Shown one piece after another: positions 20,617 to 39,416 of a stretch of DNA of 64,000 bases. Within the stretch, counting starts at the first letter, position 1, and the number at the start of each line of letters is the position of its first letter. The notes under the pieces were generated by a model. That model was not told the DNA's origin and did not search any database. It worked only from the letters and a program-made list of their open reading frames with translations. The stretch is taken from contig JAQTXA010000002.1 of NCBI GenBank assembly GCA_028689025.1, forward strand, positions 186,001 to 250,000. Direction: 5' to 3'. The translations under genes and the position numbers were made by a program. The DNA comes from Aliarcobacter sp. Lineage in GTDB: Bacteria; Campylobacterota; Campylobacteria; Campylobacterales; Arcobacteraceae.

Positions 20617-21495
20617 ATGAGAATCAATACTAACGTTTCATCATTAACTGCTCAAGAAGCAGCTGCAAATACAGGTAAAACTTTAACAAACTCTTTAGAA
20701 AAACTTTCTACTGGTCTTAGAATCAATAAAGCTTCTGATGATGCTTCTGGTCTAGCAATTGCTGATAAATTAAGAACACAAGGTACATCAATTAATCAAG
20801 GTATTGCAAATGGTAATTCAGCTGTTTCTTTATTACAAATTGCTGATAAATCAATGGCTGAGCAATCAAATATTCTTGATACAATTAAAGCTAAATTAAT
20901 TCAAGCAAATACTGATACTACTTCTGATGATGGTAAATTATCTATTGCAAAAGATGTTAATAAACTTTTAGACCAATTAAATAATATTGCTAAACAAACG
21001 AACTATAATGGTACGACTTTGTTACAAAAAAGTAGATCTTCAGCTGTTTCTCAAACAGGTTTATCATTCCAAGTTGGTGAAAATAGAGCGGATTTAATTA
21101 AAACACAAAGTATTAATTCTAATTCAACAGGTCTAAAATTAACTACACTTAAAAAAGGTGTAAGTGCTGCAGCACTAACAACTGCTGGAGCAATTGATAC
21201 TAATTTTGGTAAAACAATTATATCAGCAACACAAAAATTAATTGATACTGCAATTTCAACACTGAATGGATATAGAGGGGAAATGGGTTCTACTCAAAAC
21301 CAAATTGAATCTGCAGTTAGAAACTTAATGACTCAGTCTACAAATGTAAAAGCGGCTGAATCAATTATTAGAGATGTTGATTATGCAGCAGAATCTGCAA
21401 ACTTTAACAAACAAAACATTATTTCTCAAGCTGGTTCTTATGCAATCAGTCAAGCAAATTCTGTTCAACAAAATGTATTAAGATTACTACAATAG
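20617..21495 (+). CDS. fla: Flagellin
   Basis: Filament subunit exported by the flagellar type III system. At 292 residues it is a short flagellin. The N-terminal D0/D1 region (MRINTNVSSLTAQEAAAN, LSTGLRINKASDDASGLAIA) and the C-terminal D1/D0 region (AAESANFNKQNIISQAGSYA through QQNVLRLLQ) are conserved. The central variable domain is only about 60-80 residues and rich in Ser and Thr, possible O-glycosylation sites. AAAAAGGA lies before ATG 20617. The neighbouring Maf and legionaminic acid genes suggest that this protein is the glycan acceptor. Only one flagellin gene is in the window. Confidence 0.96.
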   Translation: MRINTNVSSLTAQEAAANTGKTLTNSLEKLSTGLRINKASDDASGLAIADKLRTQGTSINQGIANGNSAVSLLQIADKSMAEQSNILDTIKAKLIQANTDTTSDDGKLSIAKDVNKLLDQLNNIAKQTNYNGTTLLQKSRSSAVSQTGLSFQVGENRADLIKTQSINSNSTGLKLTTLKKGVSAAALTTAGAIDTNFGKTIISATQKLIDTAISTLNGYRGEMGSTQNQIESAVRNLMTQSTNVKAAESIIRDVDYAAESANFNKQNIISQAGSYAISQANSVQQNVLRLLQ

Positions 21496-25801: not shown

Positions 25802-26920
25802 TTATACGAAATTAATATGATTAGGAGGAGTTCCTGTTGGCTCTTCAAGCAAAATATCACCTTTTTTATACCCATCTAAAAACTCATTTACTTTATGTTG
25901 TAAACATAAAGAACCGCACATTGTTTGTGCATCAAAATTTGGAGAAGCTAAATGATTCATAACTTCCCAATATTTATCACCATTCACAATATCTTTGAAT
26001 CTTTGTTGGGTAATGTTTCCTATATGGAATCTGCTATATCTTTCATTAAATAACATTCCACAAGGGGCAACTAATCCAGAACCTGAAATTTGTATTTGAA
26101 AGGGCGCCCCATAACATCTTTGGTAACTTCTTTTACCTTCTGTATTAATTTTTGACCATTTCACACTTACTTGATAATCTTCATCACTATATGATTCTGC
26201 TTCTTCTAAAATATGAGTTAACTGTGCATATTTTGAATAATCAACTCCTAATTTACCATCTTCACTATCACTTGTATGTTTAACAACTAAATAATCTGGT
26301 CTAATTTCTTTACCTAACTTTGCCAAAGGAATAACTTGGTCAGCATCTTCTGGCATAAGTACCATTTGCATACCTATAGTTACATTAAGATTATTTTTTT
26401 TCTTTATCTCAACCATATCTTTTATATTTTGAATTACTTGGTGAAAATGATTTTCATTTACTCCCATAATCTGTGCATATCTTTCTGGCTCTCCTGCTGA
26501 TATATTAATTCTAATATATGTTAAATAAGGCAGAACTCTCTCTAATGCTTCATATCTTAAATTATATCCATGAGTTGCAGATGCCATAGAGATACCTAAT
26601 TGTGCCCCTTTTATAATTGTATGTTCAAATACTGGAGAAAGGGTACTTTCCCCATCACTAACTAAAGAAATGGCTTTTACACCCATTTCTTTACAATCTT
26701 CTAAAAAAGAATCCATATGTTCTTTTGTAATATCAAATCTATCATTTTCTTGAAGCCTTGCATAACAAAAATGACATCCATAATTACAAGCTCTTGTTAA
26801 AGCCATATCAATTGTAAGAGGTGCAATTCTTTCACCTTTTTCCCACTGTTTAATTCTCTCTTGATGCCAATATATTTTTGTAGCATCTAATATATACTTA
26901 TTTTCGTTTTTTATTTTCAT
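25802..26920 (-). CDS. Radical SAM enzyme with SPASM-like C-terminal cysteines (first of two)
   Basis: A 372-residue radical SAM protein. The [4Fe-4S] motif is CNYGCHFC (CxxxCxxC) near residue 47, followed by a GESTLSP segment fitting the SAM glycine region. The C-terminal third has CYGAPF, VAPCGM and CGSLC, a spacing typical of SPASM or twitch auxiliary clusters. It resembles the other radical SAM protein encoded at 29443-30534 in layout, including the KW/W-rich start and the RCYGAPF/KCYSTPF segment. The substrate is unknown; in a sugar cassette, dehydrogenation, epimerisation or deoxygenation are options. Its start overlaps the upstream small gene by 23 bases. Confidence 0.87.
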   Translation of the reverse strand: MKIKNENKYILDATKIYWHQERIKQWEKGERIAPLTIDMALTRACNYGCHFCYARLQENDRFDITKEHMDSFLEDCKEMGVKAISLVSDGESTLSPVFEHTIIKGAQLGISMASATHGYNLRYEALERVLPYLTYIRINISAGEPERYAQIMGVNENHFHQVIQNIKDMVEIKKKNNLNVTIGMQMVLMPEDADQVIPLAKLGKEIRPDYLVVKHTSDSEDGKLGVDYSKYAQLTHILEEAESYSDEDYQVSVKWSKINTEGKRSYQRCYGAPFQIQISGSGLVAPCGMLFNERYSRFHIGNITQQRFKDIVNGDKYWEVMNHLASPNFDAQTMCGSLCLQHKVNEFLDGYKKGDILLEEPTGTPPNHINFV

Positions 26921-27191
26921 CTATTCTATCTTTCAAGAGAATAATTACAGGAAAGTTTCCCAGTTTTTCTCTTATATAATTTTCATATTTAACTAAAAAA
27001 TCATAAACATCTTTTTTATCTACAAAAAGATTAACCTCAATGGCTTGATTTTTTACACTACTAACTTCTAATCTGTCTTTAAAAACATCACTACATGAAT
27101 TAACAATTTTAAACTGTTCATCGTGTGAAAGTTTCTTCCACTCAATTAATTCTGGTGATTCATATCTTTCATAATTATTTGCATCTAACAT
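26898..27191 (-). CDS. Small protein of unknown function in the sugar cassette
   Basis: A 97-residue protein that I do not recognise. It is soluble, charged, has no signal peptide, and ends in a Lys-rich tail. The pattern of short hydrophobic strands and helices (IEVNLFVDKKDVYDFLVKY, then FPVIILLKDR) suggests a small alpha/beta fold. ATG 27191 was chosen because GAAGGG lies about 8 bases upstream; a TTG at 27212 is in frame. It overlaps the transketolase C-part gene by 17 bases and the radical SAM gene by 23 bases, so it is translated with them. It could be an accessory subunit of either. Confidence 0.72.
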   Translation of the reverse strand: MLDANNYERYESPELIEWKKLSHDEQFKIVNSCSDVFKDRLEVSSVKNQAIEVNLFVDKKDVYDFLVKYENYIREKLGNFPVIILLKDRIDENKKRK

Positions 27192-27669
27192 AAACTGGCC
27201 CTTCGTAATCAAACATTTTTTTTATATCATCTTTTAGTGTTTCTGAAGAAGGTGACAATATCAAAAAGTTCTTAAATATTTTTATCATTTCTATATCATC
27301 ATTATCTAAACAATGGCTTCTACCTAATTTTTCAAAATAGTTATTAGCCCCAACACCAATAAGTTTTATATTCATTTTATGTTCATTTAAATCATATCTA
27401 ATTTGTTCATAAGCTCTCATAACTAAAAATGGAATTTGTGAATATACAATAGGTTTTAAACCTGTTAAATACATCCCTGCACTCATACTTATCATCGCTT
27501 GTTCACAAATACCTATATTAAAAGCTCGATTTGAATGATTATTAAAGTAATCATCTAAAACAGCAAATCCCATATCTCCTACAAATAAAGTCATTTTTTC
27601 ATCATTTTTAAAGTAATGATAGATCTCTTTCATCACTTCTTGTTTTGTTGATAATTCATTCATTTTCAT
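27175..27669 (-). CDS. Transketolase, pyrimidine-binding subunit (short)
   Basis: The second half of a split thiamine diphosphate enzyme. The 164 residues correspond to the transketolase Pyr domain: FVGDMGFAVLDDYF, and NIGICEQAMISMSAGMYLTG, which contains the Glu that activates the cofactor. Normal C-terminal halves have about 300 residues because a transketolase C domain follows; here it is absent. The gene overlaps the N-part gene by 14 bases, so the two are made together and should assemble into one active site. Confidence 0.88.
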   Translation of the reverse strand: MKMNELSTKQEVMKEIYHYFKNDEKMTLFVGDMGFAVLDDYFNNHSNRAFNIGICEQAMISMSAGMYLTGLKPIVYSQIPFLVMRAYEQIRYDLNEHKMNIKLIGVGANNYFEKLGRSHCLDNDDIEMIKIFKNFLILSPSSETLKDDIKKMFDYEGPVYVRCK

Positions 27670-28447
27670 TTTCCATTATATATCCATCTTCAGTTGGACA
27701 TCTAAAGTGATGAGCTATAGAATTCTCACAAATATCTATACCCTTTCCTTTTATTGTGTCGCAAAGCATTATAGATATAGATTCATTATTTTGATTAAAA
27801 AACTTATTCATACATTTTTGTAACTCTTTTTCATCATGCCCATCTAATCTATAAAAGTTATCAGTATAAGCATTTAAAACTTTTCCTAATCTTGAATTAT
27901 CTAATCCAACATCGGATACCTTATCCATTGCTTGTAAATTATTCCCATCAACTATCAGAAGTAAATTATCAAGTTTAAACCTATAAGCTAAAGACAATGC
28001 TTCAAAGTTACTTCCTTCTTGCATTTCTCCGTCACCTACAATACAAATAACTTTATTAGGAAGATTTTGCATTTTAAATGATTGTGCCATACCTACAGAT
28101 ATTGGTAAACCATGACCTAATGAACCTGTAGATGCTTCAATCATATATTCTGAATTATAAGTTAAGCACCCTTTTATTGAAGAGCCATTATAAAAAGTAT
28201 TAAGTTCTTCATTTGGTAAAAATCCCAATTCGTTTAAGATTACATAATATGAATATGCTCCATGTCCTTTACTAAAAATTAATCTATCTCTTGTATTGTC
28301 TTTTGGATTAGTTTTATTATATTTTAAAAAATCACGAAATAAAACAGTAAGCATCTCTACGCATGATAAAGAAGGTGCTAAATGACCAGCTTTTGTATTG
28401 CAAGAGAGTCTTATAGTTTTTTTTCTTATATCTTCACTATTTAGCAT
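27656..28447 (-). CDS. Transketolase, diphosphate-binding subunit
   Basis: First half of the split thiamine diphosphate enzyme, 263 residues from ATG 28447. The TPP motif is clear: CIVGDGEMQEG, then about 25 residues, then VDGNNLQ. An N-terminal KAGHLAPSLS and FSKGHGAYSYY are also typical of transketolase. Transketolases move a two-carbon ketol unit between sugar phosphates; related TPP enzymes add two-carbon branches to sugars. In this sugar cassette it may make an unusual ketose phosphate, but that is inference. A GTG-type start at 28468 is possible in the frame; the ATG is preferred because it gives a normal N terminus. It overlaps the epimerase gene by 11 bases. Confidence 0.88.
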   Translation of the reverse strand: MLNSEDIRKKTIRLSCNTKAGHLAPSLSCVEMLTVLFRDFLKYNKTNPKDNTRDRLIFSKGHGAYSYYVILNELGFLPNEELNTFYNGSSIKGCLTYNSEYMIEASTGSLGHGLPISVGMAQSFKMQNLPNKVICIVGDGEMQEGSNFEALSLAYRFKLDNLLLIVDGNNLQAMDKVSDVGLDNSRLGKVLNAYTDNFYRLDGHDEKELQKCMNKFFNQNNESISIMLCDTIKGKGIDICENSIAHHFRCPTEDGYIMENENE

Positions 28448-29432
28448 TATTGTCACCCAAACATTCAAACCAATCTTTTGTAGCTTCCTTTATAGAATTT
28501 TCATTCCAAACTGGTGCTTCTCTCCATTGTTCAATGTTTTCTAACATAATTTTAACACCTTTTTCAAAGGGAACTTTTGGATTCCATCCTAAAATTTTTT
28601 TTATCTTTGAAATATCAGCATAGGTACAATCAGGTTCACCTGGTCTTTTTGGGATATATGTTTTTTCACCGCCTAAAAGCTCAACTAAATAATTTACACT
28701 GTAAGTATTATCACTACCAACATTAAAAATTTCATTTGTAACTTGAGATTTTGCTGCTGTGAAACATGCATCAACAACATCTGTAACAAAAGTAAAATCT
28801 CTAGTTTGTTCACCATCACCTACAATTGTTAAAGGTTGATTATTTAATAATTGCGCTAAAAAAACACCAAAAACGGCACCATAAGTTCCACTTGTTCTAT
28901 GTCTTGGACCATATACATTAAAAAATCTCATAGAAACAATTGGAAGTTTATAAACTTGTCCCCAATGTAAAACATACTCTTCGGCTATTCTTTTAGTATG
29001 AGCATAAGGATATTCAGGTTTTACTAAACTAGTTTCAGGAGTTGGATAAATCTCTGGAATTCCATAACAAGAGCTAGATGCAGCATAAACAAATTTTTTT
29101 AGATTTTTAGATTTTTTACTTGCCTCTAAAATGTTAATTGTTCCATCTACATTTGCTTTATGATATAACAAAGGATTATTTATAGATGGAACTATATCTG
29201 CCATTGCTGCAAAATGAAAAACATAATCAACATCTTCAAAATATTCATCAAACTTTATAGAATAATCACTTATATCAGCTTTTATAAATTTTACTTTTGA
29301 GCTTTTATTTATGTTTTCTTCTCTTCCATTTATTAGATTATCAATAACTATTACTTCAAAACCTTCTTTTATTAATAAATCAACCATATGAGAACCAATA
29401 AAACCTGCTCCTCCAGTAACAATTGCCTTCAT
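28437..29432 (-). CDS. NAD-dependent sugar epimerase/dehydratase (extended SDR)
   Basis: A 331-residue extended short-chain dehydrogenase. The NAD-binding motif is TGGAGFIGSHMVDLLIKEG at the N terminus, the catalytic Tyr-Lys pair lies in YPYAHTKRIAEEY, and ARFFNV-type and RDFTFVTDVV segments match UDP-glucose 4-epimerase-like enzymes. It probably changes the configuration or oxidation state of the nucleotide sugar made in this cassette. It sits between the second radical SAM gene and the transketolase pair. Epimerase, dehydratase or decarboxylase cannot be told apart by eye. Confidence 0.9.
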   Translation of the reverse strand: MKAIVTGGAGFIGSHMVDLLIKEGFEVIVIDNLINGREENINKSSKVKFIKADISDYSIKFDEYFEDVDYVFHFAAMADIVPSINNPLLYHKANVDGTINILEASKKSKNLKKFVYAASSSCYGIPEIYPTPETSLVKPEYPYAHTKRIAEEYVLHWGQVYKLPIVSMRFFNVYGPRHRTSGTYGAVFGVFLAQLLNNQPLTIVGDGEQTRDFTFVTDVVDACFTAAKSQVTNEIFNVGSDNTYSVNYLVELLGGEKTYIPKRPGEPDCTYADISKIKKILGWNPKVPFEKGVKIMLENIEQWREAPVWNENSIKEATKDWFECLGDNNAK

Positions 29433-29442
29433 ACTTTACCTT

Positions 29443-30534
29443 TTATATAAAATTATCATGTGAATTAGGATTTTTTAATCTCCATAAATATCTATTTACC
29501 TCATCCATTCTACAATTAATTCTACAGTTTTTAATATCTAATTCATCTTGAACAAATGATGAACAATCTTTTCTTTTTTCACTTTCCCAAATCTCTTCAA
29601 AACTATTTTTATAAATATTTCCGTAACAAAATTTTTCATCACTTAAATGTGCACTGCAACCATATACATCGCCATTTGCCGAAATGTATCCCCAAAAGAA
29701 TGGAGTTGAATAACATTTTTCATATGATTGTTTTTTTTCTATATATTTTTTCATTGTATTGATTCTAAATACTACATTAAAGTTTTCATCAGAAACCTTA
29801 TCTAATTCATCTTTTATATCTAACATTTTACTATAATCAATATTTTCATACTTAGTTGTTTCACTATACAAATGTTGAGAATAAGGTTTAATAACCAAAT
29901 AATCTATTCCAATTTCTTTACATTTTTTTGCCAAAAGTACAGTTTCATCTTTATTTTCTGGTAAAAGTAACATTTGTACACCTAAAGTACAATTTAAATT
30001 ATTTTTCTTTCTATATTCATTTGCATATTTTAAATTTTCAAAAACTTTTTCAAAATCTTTTTCACTTGTTCTATGAATTTCAGAATATGTTTTTGCACTA
30101 CCTGCGTTTAAACTTACTTTTATCCAAGAACAATTTTCCATACATTTTTCTATATTTTTTTTATTTAAAGGTACAAAATTTGTTGTCAAAGAGGTATCTA
30201 TTCCAATTTTTGAACAATGTTCTACAATAATATCTAAGTTTTTAAATAATAATGGTTCACCTTCTCCTGCAAACATTACACTTTTCACACCATTTTGTGC
30301 CATATTTGTCAAAGTATTTTTTAATACCTCATAATCCAGTGCTTTTTTATCATAGCCCATATAATCAAGCCCACAAAAAGTACATCTGTGATTACAACCA
30401 CCATAAGGTGAAATTTCAACATATATTGGATAAATGCTTTTTTGCTTCTCCCAACTATCTGCCTCTAACCATTTACTCACCCTTGTTGGATGAAGTATAA
30501 GTTTATGAGAATCTATTGAATACGTATCACTCAT
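29443..30534 (-). CDS. Radical SAM enzyme with SPASM-like C-terminal cysteines (second of two)
   Basis: A 363-residue radical SAM protein. CNHRCTFC (CxxxCxxC) near residue 48 holds the SAM cluster, and MFAGEGEPLLF is the GGE-like SAM-binding strand. C-terminal cysteines occur in KCYSTPF, VYGCSAH, KFCYGNI and NCRINCR, as expected for auxiliary clusters. It resembles the protein at 25802-26920 in length, motif spacing and the region around the C-terminal cysteines, so the two are probably paralogues acting in one pathway. The gene overlaps the glycosyltransferase gene by 8 bases. Substrate unknown. Confidence 0.87.
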   Translation of the reverse strand: MSDTYSIDSHKLILHPTRVSKWLEADSWEKQKSIYPIYVEISPYGGCNHRCTFCGLDYMGYDKKALDYEVLKNTLTNMAQNGVKSVMFAGEGEPLLFKNLDIIVEHCSKIGIDTSLTTNFVPLNKKNIEKCMENCSWIKVSLNAGSAKTYSEIHRTSEKDFEKVFENLKYANEYRKKNNLNCTLGVQMLLLPENKDETVLLAKKCKEIGIDYLVIKPYSQHLYSETTKYENIDYSKMLDIKDELDKVSDENFNVVFRINTMKKYIEKKQSYEKCYSTPFFWGYISANGDVYGCSAHLSDEKFCYGNIYKNSFEEIWESEKRKDCSSFVQDELDIKNCRINCRMDEVNRYLWRLKNPNSHDNFI

Positions 30535-31972
30535 TTTTTTCTTTCTCCACTATATTTAGAATTTTTTCTGCAAAATTTTTATATGTAAAAATTTTTATAA
30601 ATGATTCAAATTTCTCATCATTACAATCTACAAACGATTCTAGTAATTCATCTTTAGATTTATAATATATTAAAACATCCTCATAATAAGGAGCTGTATC
30701 TTTTTCTCTACAATCATACAATATTGGTTGACAACCACAAGCAACAGCTTCTAAAACTCTTTGTTGAATTATATAATCTGCATGTGGTGCTAAAGTATAT
30801 TTTGCACTTGAATAAACATTTACTAAATCTTCTCCATAAGTTAATGCACCTTTAAAAAATTTACTCACTTCAGGATAATTTTCCCATCCCCAACCATATA
30901 CTTCTATTTTATATTTTTTTGATAATTCACTTTCACATAACCAAATTACACTAAAATCTCTAACTATATATGGAATAACTTTTTGTATCAAGATATCCTT
31001 ATCTATATAATATTTTGCCAATATATTTTCTATAAAATTGTCATTAAATGATAGCCCTTTTTCTAGTTGGCTTTTCAATTCTTCTATCATATTTTGATCT
31101 AAATTATATGGTTTTATAATATCATTATAAGAAGAACCAATAAATACTATTTTATCCTCTCTTTTTATTTCATTATTAACTTTGAATATTTTTTCATTAA
31201 TTGCAAAATTTTGTCTTTCATAAGGTATTTTTTTTCTTTCAAAACATTTATCAAAAAAACTTGTTAGTGAAAAAAAATGTTCCCTTTTTTTCTTTTTATA
31301 CTCTTCTTTATCCATAATAAATGCCATAGGATCTTGAAACCAAATAAAATTAAAAACATTTTCATTACAAAATGGTAGTACTTGATTTATGTTTATTACG
31401 ATATGGGGATTAAAATTATGATACTCAACAAGTAAAGGTAAATAATCACTCATAGATTCAAATTCTGTTTCATCTAAAAACATTTTTACTTCATACTTAT
31501 CATTTTCTTTTAAAACATCATATATTCCTTTAGAAATATATTGCATAACTGTTGTATATCTAGAACTTGGTATAAATATTCTTAATTTTTCATCGTTAAA
31601 ATCTGGATTTAGATTTAAATTTTCATCAAAATACAACTGGATTAATTTATTTCTATCTGTATTTGCTAAATTTAAAAGCTTTACTAATTGATTAGATAAA
31701 ATTTGACTTCCACCTACACTAAAATCATCATTGTATACAACTACTCTAGTAGGCAATCTATATTTTGTTGTATAAAAGAAATTATAAAAATTTTCCAAGG
31801 GAACAAAAATACAATTTTCGGGTAAATCTTCTCTTTTTTCATCAGCATTGTAATAACATAATTGTTTGCCAAAAATTGTAGGATGTCCAAGCTTGACAAA
31901 ATTATTCTTTTTTGCCTCTTCTATTGCATCTAAAACATTAAAAAAATAACTATCTTCACCAAATTGTTGCAT
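30527..31972 (-). CDS. Glycosyltransferase, CgeB/GT-B-like
   Basis: A 481-residue predicted cytoplasmic glycosyltransferase. The C-terminal ~120 residues fit the Glyco_trans_1_2/CgeB type domain: EVYGWGWENYPEVSKFF, then YSSAKYTLAPHADYIIQQRV and EAVACGCQPILYDC, the usual donor-binding end of GT-B enzymes. The N-terminal half looks like the first Rossmann-like domain (VVVYNDDFSVGGSQILSNQL). There is no membrane segment. In this island it is the only obvious transferase besides Maf, so it may extend the flagellar glycan with the cassette's sugar, or modify a surface polysaccharide. It is followed by an 8-base overlap with the radical SAM gene. Confidence 0.78.
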   Translation of the reverse strand: MQQFGEDSYFFNVLDAIEEAKKNNFVKLGHPTIFGKQLCYYNADEKREDLPENCIFVPLENFYNFFYTTKYRLPTRVVVYNDDFSVGGSQILSNQLVKLLNLANTDRNKLIQLYFDENLNLNPDFNDEKLRIFIPSSRYTTVMQYISKGIYDVLKENDKYEVKMFLDETEFESMSDYLPLLVEYHNFNPHIVININQVLPFCNENVFNFIWFQDPMAFIMDKEEYKKKKREHFFSLTSFFDKCFERKKIPYERQNFAINEKIFKVNNEIKREDKIVFIGSSYNDIIKPYNLDQNMIEELKSQLEKGLSFNDNFIENILAKYYIDKDILIQKVIPYIVRDFSVIWLCESELSKKYKIEVYGWGWENYPEVSKFFKGALTYGEDLVNVYSSAKYTLAPHADYIIQQRVLEAVACGCQPILYDCREKDTAPYYEDVLIYYKSKDELLESFVDCNDEKFESFIKIFTYKNFAEKILNIVEKEKNE

Positions 31973-31973
31973 G

Positions 31974-32540
31974 TTACCCCCTTACTTTAAAATAACTAAA
32001 TATCAAATGATTTATTATACTATGGGCATCTTCTACAAGGCCATATTCACCTTTATTTGTTTCAAAATGTAAACTAATATCAGATAATGATTTAAGTTCT
32101 CCTCCATCAAATCCGGTAAGTCCTACAATTTGACAACCTTGTTCTTTTGCATATTTTGTTGCTTTTACAATATTAGCAGAACTACCACTACAAGAGATAG
32201 CCACAATAATATCTGTAGGAGATAAAATATCTTTTAGTTGCATATAAAAAACATTTTCGAAACCAATATCATTTGATATAGCATAGCTTATTGCTGAGTT
32301 ATCAGATAAAGAAATTACTTTTAAATTTTTAATTTCTCTAATTTTTAACCCTACTGCTAAATCATTTGCCATATGTGAAGCAGTTGCAGAACTTCCACCA
32401 TTTCCCATAATATAAATAGTTGTATTTTCACTTGCATTTAAAAGTATTTTATAAAAACTATTTAAACTATCTAAATCAATTTTATTCATCAGCTCATTTA
32501 ACTGAAAAATGTAATCCTTTGCAAAATCTTTAAATTCCAT
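31974..32540 (-). CDS. SIS-domain sugar phosphate isomerase (GmhA-like)
   Basis: A 188-residue SIS protein. Visible are GNGGSSATASHMANDL near residue 50, AISCSGSSANIVKATKYA and VGLTGFDGG, the pattern of GmhA, which converts sedoheptulose 7-phosphate to an aldoheptose phosphate; a C-terminal VEDAHSIINH may supply the catalytic His. I start at ATG 32540 because AAGGA lies just upstream and this leaves an 11-base overlap with the cytidylyltransferase gene; the frame is open to 32597. With a transketolase and an HldE-like kinase nearby, a ketose phosphate is a plausible substrate. A role in amino-sugar supply for legionaminic acid is the alternative. Confidence 0.85.
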   Translation of the reverse strand: MEFKDFAKDYIFQLNELMNKIDLDSLNSFYKILLNASENTTIYIMGNGGSSATASHMANDLAVGLKIREIKNLKVISLSDNSAISYAISNDIGFENVFYMQLKDILSPTDIIVAISCSGSSANIVKATKYAKEQGCQIVGLTGFDGGELKSLSDISLHFETNKGEYGLVEDAHSIINHLIFSYFKVRG

Positions 32541-33231
32541 TATTTTCCTTATGTTGTAGACAAAGATGAGCCAATTTAAAATCAAATTCATCATCAATAT
32601 CTATTGAATTTTTTTTACCCATTTTATAAGCATAAATATTCTCTTTTAGAAAGAATCCCTTATTCTCTAAAAGTTTATCTGTTTTGCAAATATAAATTGC
32701 TCCATTTAATCTAAAATATTTATCTAAGTCCTGACTTCTTTTATTTAATACTTCCTCTTTTAAAAAACTTTTCATACTCCCATCTTCTGGCAAAGTATTA
32801 CACCAAAGAGGACTATGATCCATTTCACATACAGATACAATTGCCTCTGCATTTTTTTGTTCTAAAAGTTCTATTGCTTCATCTAAATGTTTTTCACTTC
32901 TTAATGGACTTGTTGGTTGAAGTAAAACAATATAATCAAATTTTTCTAAACTATCAATAGTATGTTTAATAGCATCAAAAGTTGTAGCTGTGTCACTTGC
33001 TAATTCTTCTGGTCTTTTAATAATAGTAGCTCCATATTTCTTTGAAATAGATAATATATCTTCATCATCACTAGTAACCATTACTTTATCAATATATTTA
33101 CTTTTAAGTCCAGCTTCAATACTATAAGTAATAAGTGGTTTTCCACATAAATCAAGTACATTTTTTCGAGGTAACCTTTTACTTCCACCACGTGCTGGTA
33201 TTATTGCTAAAAAAGTTTTATTTTTATTCAT
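32530..33231 (-). CDS. legF: CMP-legionaminic acid synthetase (acylneuraminate cytidylyltransferase)
   Basis: Activates a nonulosonic acid with CTP to the CMP-sugar donor. From ATG 33231 it has 233 residues, normal for the family. AIIPARGGSKRLPRKNVLDL is the CTP-binding signature, followed by GKPLITYSIEA, LLQPTSPLRS and IDIDDEFDFKLA. An upstream GTG/ATT-type extension in the same frame would overlap the CBS gene by about 50 bases and is not needed. It is the equivalent of PtmB/LegF of Campylobacter jejuni and follows the ptmE-like gene as it does there. Legionaminic rather than pseudaminic or sialic acid is inferred from the neighbours. Confidence 0.9.
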   Translation of the reverse strand: MNKNKTFLAIIPARGGSKRLPRKNVLDLCGKPLITYSIEAGLKSKYIDKVMVTSDDEDILSISKKYGATIIKRPEELASDTATTFDAIKHTIDSLEKFDYIVLLQPTSPLRSEKHLDEAIELLEQKNAEAIVSVCEMDHSPLWCNTLPEDGSMKSFLKEEVLNKRSQDLDKYFRLNGAIYICKTDKLLENKGFFLKENIYAYKMGKKNSIDIDDEFDFKLAHLCLQHKENNGI

Positions 33232-34276
33232 TAAAAACTCTAAAGTATTCACTTTGTGCTTGTTCAAAATCACTCATTCTTCCTATATCTAACCAATATT
33301 CATGAATAGGAAATGAAATAACTTTTTTTTCTTTTTCAATAAAAGTATTAAATAAAGTTGGCATATCATAAAATTCATTTTTTGGGATATGCTCAAAAAC
33401 TTTTGGAGAAAGCACATAAATTCCAGCATTCACAAAAAACTTTTGAATAGGTTTTTCTACTATTGATGTGATATTACTTTCTTCCACTTCTATAACACCA
33501 TATGGAACTTGATATTCATATTCTCGTACACACATTGTTGCATCTGAATTAGAAAAAGAATGAAAATCTAATAAATGTGAAAAATTAACATCTGTTAATA
33601 AATCAGCATTCATCACAAAAAAAGGTTCATTTGGTTTATTTTCGATTAAACTTAAAGCACCTGCAGTTCCAAGTCGCATATTCTCTTCTACGTAATCAAT
33701 ATTTACACCAAAATTGCTTCCATCTCCAAAATAGTCTTTTATCATTTCACCCTTATAATTTAAACTAATTGTGATATTAACAAATCCATAATTTGCGAAG
33801 TTTTTTATAATAGTTTCTAAAATTGGTTTATTACCAACTTTTAATAATGGTTTTGGAATATCTTGTGTTAAAGGACGAAGTCTTGTTCCTAATCCTCCTG
33901 CCATCAAAATCACTCTATTTCTTTTTTTAGTTATATTAAGTAATGTAGCTAAATTTACAATATCTACTAATTTGCCCTCATCATCAACAATAGGTATTTG
34001 ATAAACCTGTTTAGAAATAGCTTTTTGAATAATTCTTTCATTCGAATCATTAATAGATGCAATTGTAGGATTTTTAAAATATAAATCTTCAATAATGTCA
34101 TCTAAAGATAAATTTCTCAAAAGTCCTCTTCTGATATCTCCATCACTTAAAGTTCCTAATAATTTATTCTCAGAGTCTACAACTAAAGCGATTCTCATTG
34201 CTCCACTATCAATTATTTTCAAAGCTTCTTTTATAGTTGAATTTATATTTAATTTAATTCCATCAATATTTTTCAT
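33224..34276 (-). CDS. ptmE: CBS-domain sugar nucleotidyltransferase (PtmE-like)
   Basis: A 350-residue protein with two CBS domains in residues ~1-115 and an NTP-transferase domain in ~120-350 (VILMAGGLGTRLRPLTQDIP, KPLLKVGNKPILE, VMNADLLTDV). In C. jejuni, PtmE of this architecture makes GDP-GlcNAc, the dedicated precursor for legionaminic acid. The same gene order (legG, ptmE, legF) occurs here, which supports the call. The CBS pair may sense an adenine nucleotide. It overlaps the cytidylyltransferase gene by 8 bases. Confidence 0.9.
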   Translation of the reverse strand: MKNIDGIKLNINSTIKEALKIIDSGAMRIALVVDSENKLLGTLSDGDIRRGLLRNLSLDDIIEDLYFKNPTIASINDSNERIIQKAISKQVYQIPIVDDEGKLVDIVNLATLLNITKKRNRVILMAGGLGTRLRPLTQDIPKPLLKVGNKPILETIIKNFANYGFVNITISLNYKGEMIKDYFGDGSNFGVNIDYVEENMRLGTAGALSLIENKPNEPFFVMNADLLTDVNFSHLLDFHSFSNSDATMCVREYEYQVPYGVIEVEESNITSIVEKPIQKFFVNAGIYVLSPKVFEHIPKNEFYDMPTLFNTFIEKEKKVISFPIHEYWLDIGRMSDFEQAQSEYFRVFNE

Positions 34277-34277
34277 A

Positions 34278-35438
34278 TTACACCTTTAAATCATAAAATG
34301 ATTTTTTCAATATATTTTTTAGATCTTCATTTTTAATTATTTCAATGATTTTTCTACTTGCAATTCCATCACCATAAGGATTTTCTGATTCTTTCAATAA
34401 CTCTTGAAACTCTTTAGAATATAGTTTACTAAAAGATTTTAAAATAGAAGTTTTATTTGCTTCACTATCTATCACACTTTTGGCTTTTATTCTACCTTTT
34501 TGTCTATCTCCAATATTTATTGTTCCTATTTTAAAACTAGGTGCTTCCGCAAGTCCGCTTGAACTATTTCCAACTACTGCATCAACATATTGTAAAGCAC
34601 TTAAATATCTTAGTTGTCCCAAAGATGTAAAACCTGTGGATTTTTTAGAATTTTTAGATACATATTCATCTATCATTTGATTAATAATTCTTCCATCTGT
34701 ATCACTATTTGCTTTTGTAAAAATTATATTTGTATCTTCTAATTCATCTATCGCATTTAAAAGTTCTTGGAATTGCTCTTTTGCAGTTGAATCCTCAAGA
34801 GTTATGGGATGGAAAGTTACTAATATATTTTTTTTATTTAATTTAAAATCAATTGATTTCTCAAATTCATCTTTTGAAAGAAGTTTTAATCTTTTGATAT
34901 TTTCAATACCCATTCCACCCACATTAAAAACTCTATTTGGCTGTTCGCCAAGTTGAATTACTCTATTTTTATACTCTTCCGTTGCAGTAAAATGTAAATG
35001 AGACATTTTAGTAATACTATGTCTTATTGCTTCATCAAAAGCACCTTCAGTAGTTTCTCCACCATGAAGATGAGCTATTGGAATTCTTGATATCATTGCC
35101 GTACTAACGGCACTGAATATTTCATATCTATCTCCAAGAACTACTATAATATCTGGCTTTAATTCTTCAAAAGCTTCAGCAAAAGATATTTGAGATAAAC
35201 CCATTGATTTTGAGATACCAATAGCAGTATCAGAAGATAAAAGCATCTCAATTTTTTTATCTATTTTAAAATCTTTTTCTATCTCTTTATATGTTAAACC
35301 AAATTCAGGGCTAAGATGCATGCCTGTAGCTATTATCTGGAGTTCTAGTTCATCATTCGATTCTATCTCTTTCATAAGCCAATAAAGTAAACCATATTCA
35401 GCTCTAGTTCCTGTAACTACGCATATTTTTCTTTTCAT
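34278..35438 (-). CDS. legG: NDP-sugar hydrolysing 2-epimerase (LegG/NeuC family)
   Basis: A 386-residue hydrolysing epimerase that releases the nucleotide and inverts C2 to give 2,4-diacetamido-2,4,6-trideoxymannose, the precursor of legionaminic acid. The N terminus CVVTGTRAEYGLLYWLM is the family signature, with VLGDRYEIFSA, HLHGGETTEGAFDE and GNSSSGLAEAPSF later. It lies one base before the ptmE-like gene and overlaps the synthase gene by 4 bases. The family also includes NeuC, so the substrate rests on neighbouring dehydratase and aminotransferase genes. Confidence 0.92.
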   Translation of the reverse strand: MKRKICVVTGTRAEYGLLYWLMKEIESNDELELQIIATGMHLSPEFGLTYKEIEKDFKIDKKIEMLLSSDTAIGISKSMGLSQISFAEAFEELKPDIIVVLGDRYEIFSAVSTAMISRIPIAHLHGGETTEGAFDEAIRHSITKMSHLHFTATEEYKNRVIQLGEQPNRVFNVGGMGIENIKRLKLLSKDEFEKSIDFKLNKKNILVTFHPITLEDSTAKEQFQELLNAIDELEDTNIIFTKANSDTDGRIINQMIDEYVSKNSKKSTGFTSLGQLRYLSALQYVDAVVGNSSSGLAEAPSFKIGTINIGDRQKGRIKAKSVIDSEANKTSILKSFSKLYSKEFQELLKESENPYGDGIASRKIIEIIKNEDLKNILKKSFYDLKV

Positions 35439-36433
35439 ATTAATTCATCTTCACTATAATCTTTTTGAGCAATAGTTCCTACTATTTCATCCCATCTCAT
35501 AGGATTGATTCCATTTCCTGGTCTTTTTATTGTCATATTATTTTGGGTTAAAATTTCACCTTTTTTTATACTGCAAGAAGAGACAATAGATTTTCTAGCG
35601 ATTTGCATATTTGGCATTTCACTTTTTGATGGCTTTTTTATTTGACTTCCAAGTGCTAATTCTATATTTCGTATAGATTCAACCATAGCTTTGAGCTCAT
35701 CGGGTTCTAAACTAGCTTTATGGTCAGGTCCTTCCATTGTTTTATCAAGTGTAAAATGTTTTTCTATACAACAAGCACCCATAGCAACTGCTGCTATATC
35801 AACTTCGATTCCTAAAGTATGGTCACTATATCCGAAAGCCACATTAAAAGTATTTCCTATGGTTACCATTGCTTTTAAATTTACATCTTCATAAGGTGAG
35901 GGATACATAGTATTCGCATGAAGTACAATAATATTTTCTTTTTTAGTTCCAGAAAGAATAAGTACATCTAAAGCATCTTCAATTTCACCAATATCTGACA
36001 TACCTGTTGATAAAATTACTCTTTTATTTAATTCCCCTATTTTTCTAAGATAAGGCAAATTTGTAATTTCGCCACTTGGTATTTTAAATATTTCTAACCC
36101 TAAGTCATTTAAAAGTTCGATACTATCATGGTCAAAAGGGGTTGATAGAAACATAATTTCTTTTGTTTTACAATAAGAAATAAGTTCTTTATGTGTATCT
36201 AAATCCAGTTCTAATTTTTTTATCATATCAAATTGAGATTCTAATTTATTTGTAGTTTCTTTTTGATAATCTGCTTTTTGTGCATTTTTAGATACAAGTT
36301 TTTCAGCTTTAAATGTTTGGAATTTAACAGCATCAGCTCCTGAGATAACAGCAGCATCTATAAGTTTTTTTGCAAGTTCAATGGAACCATTATGATTCAC
36401 GCCAGCTTCTGCTATTATAAATACTTTATTCAT
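35435..36433 (-). CDS. legI: Legionaminic acid synthase (NeuB family)
   Basis: Condenses the 6-carbon precursor with phosphoenolpyruvate to give a nine-carbon nonulosonic acid. From ATG 36433, supported by GGGAG nine bases upstream and an ATGA overlap with the legH stop, it has 332 residues. The TIM barrel contains AEAGVNHNGSIELAKKLID, KFQTFKAEKLV, FKIPSGEITNLPYL and STGM. The C-terminal ~60 residues are the antifreeze-like SAF domain, including SCSIKKGEILTQNN. The frame extends upstream to 36466, which would overlap legH more deeply. Confidence 0.93.
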   Translation of the reverse strand: MNKVFIIAEAGVNHNGSIELAKKLIDAAVISGADAVKFQTFKAEKLVSKNAQKADYQKETTNKLESQFDMIKKLELDLDTHKELISYCKTKEIMFLSTPFDHDSIELLNDLGLEIFKIPSGEITNLPYLRKIGELNKRVILSTGMSDIGEIEDALDVLILSGTKKENIIVLHANTMYPSPYEDVNLKAMVTIGNTFNVAFGYSDHTLGIEVDIAAVAMGACCIEKHFTLDKTMEGPDHKASLEPDELKAMVESIRNIELALGSQIKKPSKSEMPNMQIARKSIVSSCSIKKGEILTQNNMTIKRPGNGINPMRWDEIVGTIAQKDYSEDELI

Positions 36434-37008
36434 TTTACTAAGCTCCCTGCTTTTACGAAACCACAAATTTTAATACCTTGTTTAGAAGTTGCATTACTTC
36501 CATAAAAAGTGTTTTTTGTTACGATAACTCCACCATTTAATACGCTAGCAGTTGAAATATGACAGTTATCCTCTACAACAACATCATGTTCTATTAAAGC
36601 TTTTGAATTAATTATACAATTTTTCCCAATTTTTGCATTTGCATTTACTAAAGCATTATGCATTACAATAGTCCCTTCATCTAAAAAAGCATGTTTTGAG
36701 ACATAAGCAAAAGGTGAAATAATTATTGGGAAATTAAATCCAATCTTTTTTAATTTATTAAATAAGCTTATTCTTAATTCATTTGTTTGTATAAATCCTA
36801 TTGTAATTATTGCATTTTTACAGTTTTTAAATATATTTTCAAAATCATCATCACAAGCGATAATTTTATAGCCAAGAACATCTTTACCTATATTATCTTT
36901 TAAATCAACTATACCCATAATTTCAAATATATTTTCTTGTTCAATTACATCAATTACACTATGGCAATGACCACCACCGCCAATTAATACTATTTTTTCT
37001 TTTATCAT
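36430..37008 (-). CDS. legH: Sugar N-acetyltransferase (LegH/PglD/NeuD type)
   Basis: A 192-residue acetyltransferase expected to acetylate the C4 amino group set by the aminotransferase LegC. An N-terminal Rossmann-like part (KIVLIGGGGHCHSVIDVIEQ) is followed by left-handed beta-helix hexapeptides, with an IEHDVVVEDNCHI stretch holding the catalytic His. It overlaps both neighbours by 4 bases. The order legC-legH-legI fits consecutive pathway steps. Confidence 0.88.
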   Translation of the reverse strand: MIKEKIVLIGGGGHCHSVIDVIEQENIFEIMGIVDLKDNIGKDVLGYKIIACDDDFENIFKNCKNAIITIGFIQTNELRISLFNKLKKIGFNFPIIISPFAYVSKHAFLDEGTIVMHNALVNANAKIGKNCIINSKALIEHDVVVEDNCHISTASVLNGGVIVTKNTFYGSNATSKQGIKICGFVKAGSLVK

Positions 37009-38141
37009 AATCTCACCGAACTAGGAATATTCACAACTCTCTCTTCTAAATATTTTGCATTTTTCAAATCAGTTTTTTGACAATTTTTAAACATTTCAAG
37101 CTCATTCATTAGTTTCCAAATTGGTCTTGTCATTACACCATTTTTATTTGTAAATTCTAAAAATTCATTTCTTTGATTAAGATTGTCTAATAAAATAGAT
37201 TGAAGCCAATAGTTTGATTTTGAATCTTTTGGCTCAACTATAAAATTTATTTTTTCATTTGAAAAAAATTCTTTATATTCTAAAGCTAATTCCCTTTTTG
37301 ATTCTAAAAATTTATCTAATTGTTCAAGTTGAGCAACTATTAGTGCTGCATTAATATTTGGAAGTCTATAGTTATATCCTATTTCATCATGTACATATTC
37401 ATAAGGATGAGGGATTTTTGCTGTTGTAGTAATATGTTTTGCTCTTTTGGCCATAACTTCATCATCTGTAACAATTACTCCTCCACCACCTGAAGTTACG
37501 ATTTTATTTCCGTTAAAAGAAAATGCTCCTACTTTTCCAAAAGTTCCTGTATGTTTATTTTTGTAAAACGAGCCTAAACTTTCAGCTGCATCTTCAACTA
37601 AAGTAATATTCCAAATATCGCAAATATTTTTAATCTCTTCAATTGCACAAGGATGCCCAAAAGTGTGCATGGGAACACATGCTTTTATAGTTTTTCCAGT
37701 AGTTTTATTGATACAAATATTCTCTTTTAATTCACAATTTGTTTCTAAAAAGTTTTTTAAAGATTCTGGACTTAATCCCATCGTATCTAAATCAACGTCT
37801 ACAAATATAGGTTTTGCTCCAATATAACTAATTGCATTACAAGTAGCTATAAAAGTAAGTGGTTGAGTAATAACTTCATCATCTTTTTTTACATCTGCTA
37901 ATAATAAAGAAATATGAAGTGCCGCTGTTCCGTTTACTGTAGCTATTGCATATTTACTTCCTACTATTTTTGCGAACTCTTTTTCGAAATTATCTACATA
38001 TTTTCCTACACTTGATACAAAAGTTGAATCAATACAGTCATTTAAATATTTTTTTTCATTTCCTATAAATCTAGGTTCATGTAAAGGAATAAACTCCTTT
38101 GTATTAAAAGTTTGTTTTATAAAATCTACTATATTTTCCAT
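37005..38141 (-). CDS. legC: Sugar 4-aminotransferase LegC (DegT/DnrJ/EryC1 family)
   Basis: A PLP-dependent aminotransferase of 378 residues that adds an amino group to C4 of the 4-keto-6-deoxy sugar made by LegB. The PLP lysine lies in FSFNGNKIVTSGGGG, with VEDAAESLGS upstream and ATVNGTAALHIS near residue 70. GGAGG lies about 8 bases before ATG 38141. It starts 85 bases after legB, across a hairpin, and is coupled to legH by a 4-base overlap. Confidence 0.93.
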   Translation of the reverse strand: MENIVDFIKQTFNTKEFIPLHEPRFIGNEKKYLNDCIDSTFVSSVGKYVDNFEKEFAKIVGSKYAIATVNGTAALHISLLLADVKKDDEVITQPLTFIATCNAISYIGAKPIFVDVDLDTMGLSPESLKNFLETNCELKENICINKTTGKTIKACVPMHTFGHPCAIEEIKNICDIWNITLVEDAAESLGSFYKNKHTGTFGKVGAFSFNGNKIVTSGGGGVIVTDDEVMAKRAKHITTTAKIPHPYEYVHDEIGYNYRLPNINAALIVAQLEQLDKFLESKRELALEYKEFFSNEKINFIVEPKDSKSNYWLQSILLDNLNQRNEFLEFTNKNGVMTRPIWKLMNELEMFKNCQKTDLKNAKYLEERVVNIPSSVRL

Positions 38142-38190
38142 ACACAGCCTCCAGCGGTGCTAAAGTACATCGCTTCTTGTTTCAAATCTA

Positions 38191-38214
38191 AAAAAGCAAA
38201 GTAGTTTGCTTTTT
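38191..38214 (-). terminator. Hairpin between legB and legC
   Basis: AAAAAGCAAA at 38191-38200 and TTTGCTTTTT at 38205-38214 form a perfect 10-bp stem around GTAG. Read on the minus strand it ends in a run of Ts, as in an intrinsic terminator, 12 bases after the legB stop. Downstream genes would then depend on read-through or a second promoter. Confidence 0.65.
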
Positions 38215-38225
38215 TATTACGATTT

Positions 38226-39416
38226 TCACATTTTTCCATCAAGATATTTCCCCGTTTCTTTATGCCCAAAATCTGGAAGCATAGTAAAAAATTCTTTTAC
38301 AATATCATCTTTTGTCCACGATAAATTTTCTTTAAAATTTCTAATTGTTGTTTCAAAATGGTTTAGCTTATTTTCATCAAATAAAGCTTTATTTTTAATA
38401 ATACCAAGATTCTCAAATCTATTCATATCTAAAACTTCTTTGTCTGTAAAAAACTCTTCAAAATCTTTTTCTCCAGTTGTATCACTTGAAGTAAAAAAAC
38501 AAGGCCATTTGCCTTCTGCTGGTAAAGTTTTAGCTAATTCCCTTGCTTCATCTTCTGTTTGACATAAAAATGGCTCATAACCTAAGTTTTCTAAATATTT
38601 AATAGCAATATCTGCAAAAGTTATTAAATGTAAATTTTCACTTAATTTTGGGAAAAATATATCTCTATTTTCTCCAAATATACAAGACATCAAACATAAT
38701 TCTCCACTTTCTTGAGGCGTTACAAAATATCTTTTTATATCAGTAGGAGCAACAATTGGTTGATTTTTCTGAATTCTTTGATTAAATCCATGAAGTAAAC
38801 TTCCATCACTAAAAGCAACATTTGCAAATCTTGCCATTGAAACATTTATTTCTTTTGATTTTCTCATCACAAACATTTCCATGATTCTTTTACTTGCACC
38901 CATCATATTTACAGGATTTGCAGCTTTATCAGTAGATACACAAAAATATTTTTTAGTTCCATTTTTTATTGATTGCTGAAGAGTTTTATCAGTGTTAAAA
39001 ATATTTACATCTATCATTCTCATAAGAGTAAATGGGTCTTTTTCACTTCTTACATGTTTTAAAGCAGATAAATTTAAAACATAATCATATTTACCATCTG
39101 CTTTTATAAATGTATCATATTCAATACTTCCGATATCTAATGCAAAAGTTTGAAAATCTCCATCAATATAGCCAAAACTACTTCTTATATCACGAACTAA
39201 TTCAACCATATTATTTTCGCTAATATCTACAACATGGAGTTTTTTAGGATTTCTTTTAAATATCTCTTTTGTAACAGCTTGTCCAATTGAACCTGCACCA
39301 CCTATTACTAAAAAAGTTGATTCTGATACTTTTTTAAAAAGTTCTTTTTCATAATCATTTATGTCATCAGTGAATAATTCTTTTTCTCTTCCAATTAAAT
39401 TCAATATATTATTCAC
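38226..39416 (-). CDS. legB: NDP-GlcNAc 4,6-dehydratase LegB
   Basis: First committed enzyme of legionaminic acid synthesis; removes water from the NDP-GlcNAc to give the 4-keto-6-deoxy sugar. The 396 residues are the long form of this SDR family. NAD motif: VIGGAGSIGQAVTKEIF near residue 35. CVSTDKAANPVNMMGASKR contains a Ser/Thr-Asp-Lys catalytic set typical of the PseB/FlaA1 group, in which Lys takes the place of the usual Tyr. The start is GTG 39416 with GAGGG nine bases upstream. It is the promoter-proximal gene of the island. Confidence 0.92.
   Translation of the reverse strand: MNNILNLIGREKELFTDDINDYEKELFKKVSESTFLVIGGAGSIGQAVTKEIFKRNPKKLHVVDISENNMVELVRDIRSSFGYIDGDFQTFALDIGSIEYDTFIKADGKYDYVLNLSALKHVRSEKDPFTLMRMIDVNIFNTDKTLQQSIKNGTKKYFCVSTDKAANPVNMMGASKRIMEMFVMRKSKEINVSMARFANVAFSDGSLLHGFNQRIQKNQPIVAPTDIKRYFVTPQESGELCLMSCIFGENRDIFFPKLSENLHLITFADIAIKYLENLGYEPFLCQTEDEARELAKTLPAEGKWPCFFTSSDTTGEKDFEEFFTDKEVLDMNRFENLGIIKNKALFDENKLNHFETTIRNFKENLSWTKDDIVKEFFTMLPDFGHKETGKYLDGKM

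Follow-up and report, generated by a model that had tools for sequence, protein, structure and literature searches.

Two paralogous radical SAM enzymes flanking a split transketolase in a sugar cassette of Aliarcobacter sp., and a tentative route to an unusual sugar

Gene content of the locus

An operon-like run of minus-strand genes, reading from 32597 to 23656 in a 64,000-nucleotide stretch of DNA from Aliarcobacter sp. (hereafter the window), encodes in order a SIS isomerase, a glycosyltransferase, the radical S-adenosylmethionine (SAM) enzyme rS2, a short-chain dehydrogenase/reductase (SDR), the two halves of a split transketolase (TKn and TKc), a protein of 104 amino acids (aa), a second radical SAM enzyme (rS1), an HldE-like fusion protein and a nucleotidyltransferase. 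The window lies on contig C19, in a genome of 2.72 Mb. An earlier note, made from the sequence alone, had described rS1 and rS2 as paralogous radical SAM enzymes with auxiliary-cluster cysteines in one sugar cassette, and had suggested successive radical steps on a sugar or on flagellin itself. The present analysis adds that a split transketolase (TK), which is a thiamine-diphosphate (TPP) enzyme, lies between the two radical SAM genes and is swapped for a pyruvate dehydrogenase (PDH)-type E1 at related loci elsewhere. The genes of principal concern are:

25802..26920, minus strand: rS1, radical SAM enzyme of 372 aa with a predicted Twitch-like single auxiliary-cluster site, clade A
29443..30534, minus strand: rS2, paralogous radical SAM enzyme of 363 aa, clade B
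27656..28468, minus strand: TKn, N-terminal (TPP-binding) half of a transketolase, 270 aa, Transketolase_N E = 2.3e-27
27175..27669, minus strand: TKc, short pyrimidine-binding half of a transketolase, 164 aa, matching Transket_pyr only, without Transketolase_C

A housekeeping transketolase of 647 aa is encoded on another contig of the same genome, and TKn and TKc were accordingly rejected as candidates for that role.

Two paralogous radical SAM enzymes

The reading frames of rS1 and rS2 are intact on the minus strand, while the plus-strand frames there are full of stops. The two proteins are 32% identical over 343 aa (residues 6-348; E = 3.1e-43), and both match Radical_SAM (PF04055) and SPASM (PF13186) above the Pfam cut-offs. 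The match to PF04055 together with a CxxxCxxC motif in each (C45/C49/C52 in rS1, C47/C51/C54 in rS2) places both in the radical SAM superfamily, and the C-terminal cysteine segments RCYGAPF and KCYSTPF are present as had been described. Neither falls within a named NCBIfam family: for both, the top match is a tungsten-cofactor maturase with 69-73 bits, where the cut-off is 380; scores of rS2 for BlsE and DesII are 35.5 of 400 bits and 48.8 of 450 bits, respectively.

A phylogenetic tree was built from 82 radical SAM proteins, namely the 2 of the window and 80 others encoded at 34 loci of Campylobacterota (8 of 88 clustered radical SAM open reading frames were left out by length). It contained supported clades A, B, C and D as well as others; clade A holds rS1 (15 rows) and clade B holds rS2 (23 rows). 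By these comparisons rS1 and rS2 are true paralogs within one unnamed radical SAM subfamily. The earlier note would have been contradicted had the two fallen into distant families with known peptide substrates, and this was not found. When viral contigs were searched with rS1, 2 pattern matches and no relative were obtained, and a viral origin of rS1 was rejected.

Structure models of both enzymes were of high confidence (predicted local distance difference test, 90.8 for rS1 and 90.1 for rS2). BlsE and DesII, which act on nucleoside-linked sugars as judged from the names of the models, rank first among the fold matches of both. For BlsE, rS1 gave Z 25.6 (305 residues aligned, 3.6 Å) and rS2 gave Z 25.8 (297 aligned, 3.5 Å); for DesII, the corresponding values were Z 25.6 (341 aligned, 4.0 Å) and Z 25.8 (341 aligned, 4.3 Å).

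Conserved cysteines and cofactor class

Among 154 relatives from clades A-D, gathered in a Campylobacterota scan and a wider scan described below, all three radical SAM cluster cysteines are present in every protein, and four further C-terminal cysteines are kept in 153 (C269, C287, C335 and C339 in rS1; C274, C293, C337 and C341 in rS2). No other cysteine is universal in this set. K15, P34 and G183 never vary, and the HxxF motif at the C-terminus is almost as constant (H in 150/154, F in 153/154).

SPASM proper is defined in passages of PMC6231123 by seven C-terminal cysteines, arranged as CX9-15GX4C-gap-CX2CX5CX3C-gap-C, that hold two auxiliary clusters. The seven-cysteine motif was not found in rS1 or rS2, which have only four conserved C-terminal cysteines despite the PF13186 match. 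Because there are four rather than seven, each enzyme is predicted to carry one fully cysteine-ligated auxiliary cluster and to be Twitch-like rather than SPASM; the cluster content so predicted agrees with the Twitch class, in which the SPASM region is truncated for one cluster, and with a fold match to BtrN. The auxiliary-cluster cysteines of the earlier note are thus present in both proteins, though not as a two-cluster SPASM domain. BtrN has one fully ligated cluster that is thought to accept an electron in alcohol oxidation, according to parts of two papers (PMC6231123, PMC9012708), and the four-cysteine ligation predicted for rS1 and rS2 is consistent with a BtrN-type two-electron reaction that turns an alcohol into a ketone.

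Other residues separate the clades. On the first barrel strand, D38 is found in 37/37 rS1-type proteins, E40 in 76/77 rS2-type proteins and R in 24/24 proteins of clade D. Close to a later strand, rS1-type proteins have K254 (37/37) and rS2-type proteins R257 (77/77), the strand positions being taken from the models of rS1 and rS2. Judged from these patterns, the two enzymes probably have the same cofactors and are improbable substitutes for each other; different fixed residues in each clade fit two different successive steps.

Repeated exchange of the TPP partner

In a sample of 397 Campylobacterota genomes, 42 have a split TKn (E <= 1e-35) and 29 have relatives of rS2 (E <= 1e-50). Every one of the 29 rS2-bearing genomes contains the split TKn, in comparison with 13 of the 368 others (Fisher p = 3e-34). 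At the level of loci, TK genes are present in 28 of the 29 fetched Campylobacterota loci that have a clade B or C gene, and the genome of the single exception, L039, has a split TKn on another contig.

For the wider scan, GTDB genomes were searched with the clade B/C alignment, giving at least 113 relatives; 80 of these were retained. The 59 loci considered are the non-duplicate ones with a clade B or C gene; L067, L068 and L071 were dropped as duplicates of L038, L042 and L039, and L126, which has only a fragment, is not among them. TK is present in 21 of these loci and PDH-type E1 alpha/beta in 26, and none has both. Where at least 6 kb was available on both sides, 28/33 loci have a TPP enzyme. 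By comparison, no TPP enzyme was found in 17 control loci with weak radical SAM matches from the same scan (L130-L146), several of which are short stretches. The E1 type was checked by Pfam on one pair, in which E1_dh (E 1.8e-67) and Transket_pyr plus Transketolase_C were matched.

When the partner was mapped by a quick method on the rS2 tree, 12 changes were counted, at least 6 of them forced by starred branches. On this tree the two TPP enzymes appear to have been repeatedly exchanged beside the same radical partner; for an independent-pairs test of TK/E1 against partners of clade A or D, just 3 pairs could be used, too few to carry weight. Lipoyl-E2 and E3 motifs, looked for by regular expression only, were found in none of the 26 E1 loci. 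TK or E1 is present in 47 of the 59 loci; a TPP enzyme among sugar genes, and the lack of such lipoyl and E3 motifs at the E1 loci, agree with AviB1/AviB2-type systems. The TPP gene lies less than 400 bp from the clade B/C gene in 15/29 Campylobacterota and 28/59 wider-scan loci, low counts that reflect the other genes that often intervene. Transketolases and PDH-type E1 enzymes both handle two-carbon units, and for this reason the simplest common role of the exchanged enzymes would be two-carbon transfer.

TKc itself occurs in two recurrent forms, one of about 160-200 aa without Transketolase_C, as in the window, and a longer one (about 290-328 aa). The former, which is seen repeatedly in several phyla, is a minimal natural TPP subunit.

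Sugar and glycan context

The remaining genes of the cassette and its neighbours are:

28437..29432, minus strand: GalE-like extended SDR with an SSSCYG motif
26898..27212, minus strand: small 104-aa protein between TKc and rS1, matching no Pfam family
30527..31972, minus strand: glycosyltransferase (Glyco_trans_1_2)
31974..32597, minus strand: GmhA-like SIS isomerase, second copy (the other on contig C25)
24367..25788, minus strand: HldE-like nucleotidyltransferase-kinase fusion, second copy (the other on contig C25)
23656..24366, minus strand: sugar-1-phosphate nucleotidyltransferase, HddC/GlmU-like
32530..39416, minus strand: legionaminic-acid-type set, upstream neighbour outside the conserved core
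20617..21495, plus strand: presumed flagellin gene, local neighbour beyond the downstream end of the cassette

The genes at 32530..39416 are taken here to be NeuA-, PtmE-, LegG-, LegI-, LegH-, LegC- and LegB-like, and that at 20617..21495 is assumed from its sequence to encode flagellin. The base composition does not stand out.

The SIS protein of the window best matches phosphoheptose isomerases, and the kinase domain of the HldE-like protein best matches heptose-7-phosphate kinase. Scores at the level of GmhA and HldE equivalogs were not reached, with 99 of 209 bits for SIS and 213 of 345 bits for the HldE kinase domain, so that by their profiles these proteins are related to GmhA and HldE but divergent. 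Separate homologs of TK, GmhA and HldE are present elsewhere in the genome. The domains of the HldE-like protein are reversed, with the nucleotidyltransferase first and the PfkB kinase second, which is opposite to the usual order in HldE.

TPP, GmhA-, HldE- and GalE-like genes recur around the radical pair, in keeping with the sugar cassette of the earlier note. HldE-like genes occur in 13/29 Campylobacterota and 25/59 wider-scan loci, SIS genes in 11/29 and 22/59, GalE-like SDR genes in 10/29 and 19/59, GT9 heptosyltransferase-family genes in 2/29 and 14/59, and LegI homologs in 8/29 and 3/59. The SDR motif is SSSCYG in 25 and SSSSYG in 5 of 30 proteins, and in none is it TDE, the mark of 4,6-dehydratases. 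A canonical 4,6-dehydratase was rejected as a part of the core on this ground, and the SDR is also not universal; other SDRs occur in some loci, such as one with a GDP_Man_Dehyd match in L092.

A further tie to glycans is provided by an Oligoflexia metagenome-assembled genome (MAG), in which Pfam matches reveal a family-2 glycosyltransferase (GT2) and an rS1-type enzyme fused in one 643-aa open reading frame (L104:4582-6513). GT2 genes also lie directly upstream of 8/36 rS1-type genes. As read from these arrangements, the fusion and the upstream GT2 genes link clade A to glycosyl transfer rather than to peptides. It is quite probable that the substrates of rS1 and rS2 are sugars or glycans.

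Distribution and variants of the module

Of the 40 genomes with a match to rS1, that of the window is the sole member of its genus. The closest rS1, with 90% identity, comes from another genus of the family, and proteins 84-85% identical occur in another family. Because close relatives are found outside the genus and none within it, the spread of the cassette is likely to have been patchy. The pairing expected from the earlier note was borne out in other genomes: among the Campylobacterota loci fetched, 14 carry an rS1-type gene, and each of these carries an rS2-type gene (clade B or C) as well. Records from the wider scan come from many bacterial phyla and from two Pacearchaeota, and most are MAGs. 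The rS2-type genes L110 and L111 lie on the two Pacearchaeota contigs, so that the family reaches the Archaea unless these bins are contaminated.

Clade D genes go with a 220-aa methyltransferase (15/15 clade D loci of the Campylobacterota set). TKc is usually long with clade D and usually short with rS1-type genes; exceptions are L047, L060 and L069, with clade D and short TKc, and L044-L046, with clade A and long TKc, and both clades are present in L041, L043 and L044. B12-dependent radical SAM genes (21/59) and a further radical SAM class, G8 (14/59), are frequent companions. From its gene content, the module looks like a kit with a core of an rS2-type enzyme and a TPP enzyme and with variable finishing enzymes.

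Other arrangements were seen in Campylobacterota. Up to eight adjoining radical SAM genes or gene pieces are present in L041, L043, L056, L057 and L058; in 4 of these 5 loci clade C copies are split into two pieces of about 200 aa, and 2 lie near flagellin. Clade E radical SAM genes stand beside nucleotidyltransferase, LegC-like or SDR genes in five loci (L062-L066), in which no TPP enzyme was found. A protein of 546-781 aa without a Pfam match (L051:6272-8605 and relatives) is encoded directly upstream of the G8 gene and is perhaps a new glycosyltransferase.

A proposed pathway and its alternatives

The genes and their paralogy, the conserved cysteines, the gene context, the exchange of TK for E1 and the GT2-rS1 fusion are the observations on which a pathway may be proposed, with its substrate, ketone formation, two-carbon transfer, order of steps and final acceptor all provisional. 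In the best explanation of the whole, which is put forward tentatively, the two radical SAM enzymes and the TPP enzyme would build an unusual sugar. A heptose-like nucleotide sugar would be supplied by the dedicated GmhA-like isomerase, the HldE-like kinase/nucleotidyltransferase and the GalE-like SDR, and rS2 and rS1 would act on the activated or transferred sugar. In the first radical step, rS2 would take a hydrogen atom from an alcohol carbon to leave a ketone, with the auxiliary cluster as electron acceptor, as has been proposed for BtrN. A role of rS2 in forming the carbonyl on which the TPP enzyme acts is conceivable and is proposed with some reserve. The TPP enzyme would then place a two-carbon unit on the carbonyl, a hydroxyacetyl group in the case of the split transketolase of the window and an acetyl group in the case of the E1 alpha/beta pair of other phyla. 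A second, different radical change would be made by rS1, possibly at the glycosyltransfer stage, when the sugar is on a carrier or chain. In this genome, the final sugar would probably be placed on flagellin or on another surface glycan.

Several points weigh against this pathway. The SDR, SIS and HldE genes are each present in under half of the loci, and 12/59 wider-scan loci have no TPP enzyme, some of these being cut by contig ends. The score thresholds of the hidden Markov models were the analysts' own choice. The absence of an eighth universal cysteine from clades A and B does not prove dehydrogenation. SkfB, a peptide enzyme, ties with the best fold matches for rS2 (Z 25.4 versus 25.8), while for rS1 it scores two units below BlsE and DesII (Z 23.6); on such models, fold by itself does not separate a sugar from a peptide substrate. 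Finally, transketolase is normally a source of heptose phosphates and could have a mere supply role at the TK loci. The TPP enzyme would then do no more than feed the GmhA-like isomerase with a ketose phosphate (sedoheptulose 7-phosphate or an analogue), and the nucleotide-heptose, once finished, would be dehydrogenated or epimerised by the radical enzymes independently of it. Sedoheptulose 7-phosphate is a normal product of TK, and TK, SIS, HldE-like protein, nucleotidyltransferase and SDR together look like a heptose route. Yet PDH-type E1 replaces TK in 26/59 loci and never stands alongside it, pyruvate-derived two-carbon units would presumably yield no isomerisable ketose, a housekeeping transketolase is already in the genome, and SIS and HldE are missing from many TK loci, so that a supply role alone is considered unlikely.

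The radical enzymes might otherwise be epimerases that invert sugar carbons in the manner of NeoN or AviX12, with the TPP enzyme working elsewhere. Radical SAM sugar epimerases are known, and two paralogs could invert two centers. This is quite unlikely, given that no universal eighth cysteine is available as hydrogen donor, the best candidates being kept in 27/37 proteins of clade A and, at the start of a strand, in 60/77 of clade B, and that full ligation by four cysteines suits oxidation better, to go by part of PMC9012708. A peptide might instead be the target, be it flagellin or a small precursor (the 104-aa protein beside rS1, for example), as suggested by the many SPASM/Twitch enzymes that are peptide maturases (passages of PMC6231123) and by the ranking of SkfB and SuiB among the best fold matches. 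However, the flagellin gene, present in 9/29 Campylobacterota loci, is missing from all 59 wider-scan loci, no RiPP recognition element (RRE) or PqqD domain was found by Pfam, only about 35 residues precede the core, and the TPP and sugar genes are constant. The 104-aa protein aligns with the C-terminal part of proteins of 235-351 aa at related loci; its homologs are found in only 6/34 loci of the phylum, 3 of them being of this longer kind, and GT2 occupies its place in 8 loci. A peptide or flagellin target was rejected as the leading explanation on the lack of flagellin, of an RRE and of a recurrent small precursor (small open reading frames were not systematically searched), and it is regarded as very improbable. 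Of the alternatives offered in the earlier note, successive radical steps on a sugar fit the clade-specific residues, whereas action on flagellin itself is not supported: flagellin is missing from the wider-scan loci, Pfam searches gave no peptide-recognition domain, and a TPP enzyme is the constant partner.

A widespread route in which a radical dehydrogenase acting on a heptose-like sugar, an interchangeable TPP enzyme and a second radical enzyme yield a branched or chain-extended sugar is possible but rather doubtful. If it exists, the radical-TPP module would account for unassigned genes at loci for flagella and surface glycans in phyla ranging from Campylobacterota to Omnitrophota and Nitrospirota, and hydroxyacetyl- or acetyl-branched heptoses should be detectable by glycan mass spectrometry, the branch differing by one oxygen with the swap between transketolase and PDH-type E1. 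Even with other chemistry, the seven cysteines, the HxxF tail and the TPP partner separate these genes from peptide maturases.

Comparison with known systems

Among characterized radical SAM enzymes, the 2-deoxy-scyllo-inosamine dehydrogenase BtrN shares with rS1 and rS2 both the CxxxCxxC core and a set of four cysteines suited to a single auxiliary cluster. Its fold matches that of rS1 with Z 18.6 over 234 residues (root-mean-square deviation 3.0), and a profile match (E 6e-15) covers part of the core. BtrN differs in being shorter (246 residues in 4m7t) and in acting on an aminocyclitol, and a like reaction of rS1 and rS2 would be by analogy. The cytosylglucuronate decarboxylase BlsE and the dTDP-aminosugar ammonia-lyase DesII are the top folds (Z 25.6-25.8, 297-341 residues, deviation 3.5-4.3), and differ in being only 14-21% identical to rS1 and rS2, with NCBIfam scores far under cut-off.

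In the open-licence full texts of PubMed Central, as far as these were covered, no functional account of a radical SAM-TPP module was recognized. The nearest is a mention of the Campylobacter fetus region CFF8240_1582-1612, which by its description resembles the module in having several radical SAM proteins, two transketolase subunits, a methyltransferase and two glycosyltransferases; in the relevant part of the paper it is named only as a recombination region, with no function given (PMC5013579).

On the side of the TPP enzyme, keto sugars receive two-carbon branches from AviB1/AviB2-like PDH proteins or from YerE, as described in portions of three papers (PMC4425429, PMC4753412, PMC10338323). 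The E1-type loci share with AviB1/AviB2 and Pau11/Pau12, likened here by their description, a two-subunit PDH-like form and no lipoyl/E3 motif nearby (part of PMC4425429). In the AviB, Pau11/Pau12 and YerE (yersiniose) systems, an SDR that is a dehydratase or a decarboxylase makes the keto sugar (part of PMC10338323). Unlike those systems, the loci described here have an SDR without the TDE motif, radical SAM enzymes beside the TPP enzyme and, in the window, a split transketolase. If the proposal is correct, this would be a third way to two-carbon branched sugars beside the AviB and YerE types, in which radical chemistry prepares the acceptor, and the new element would be a radical-made ketone in place of an SDR-made one.

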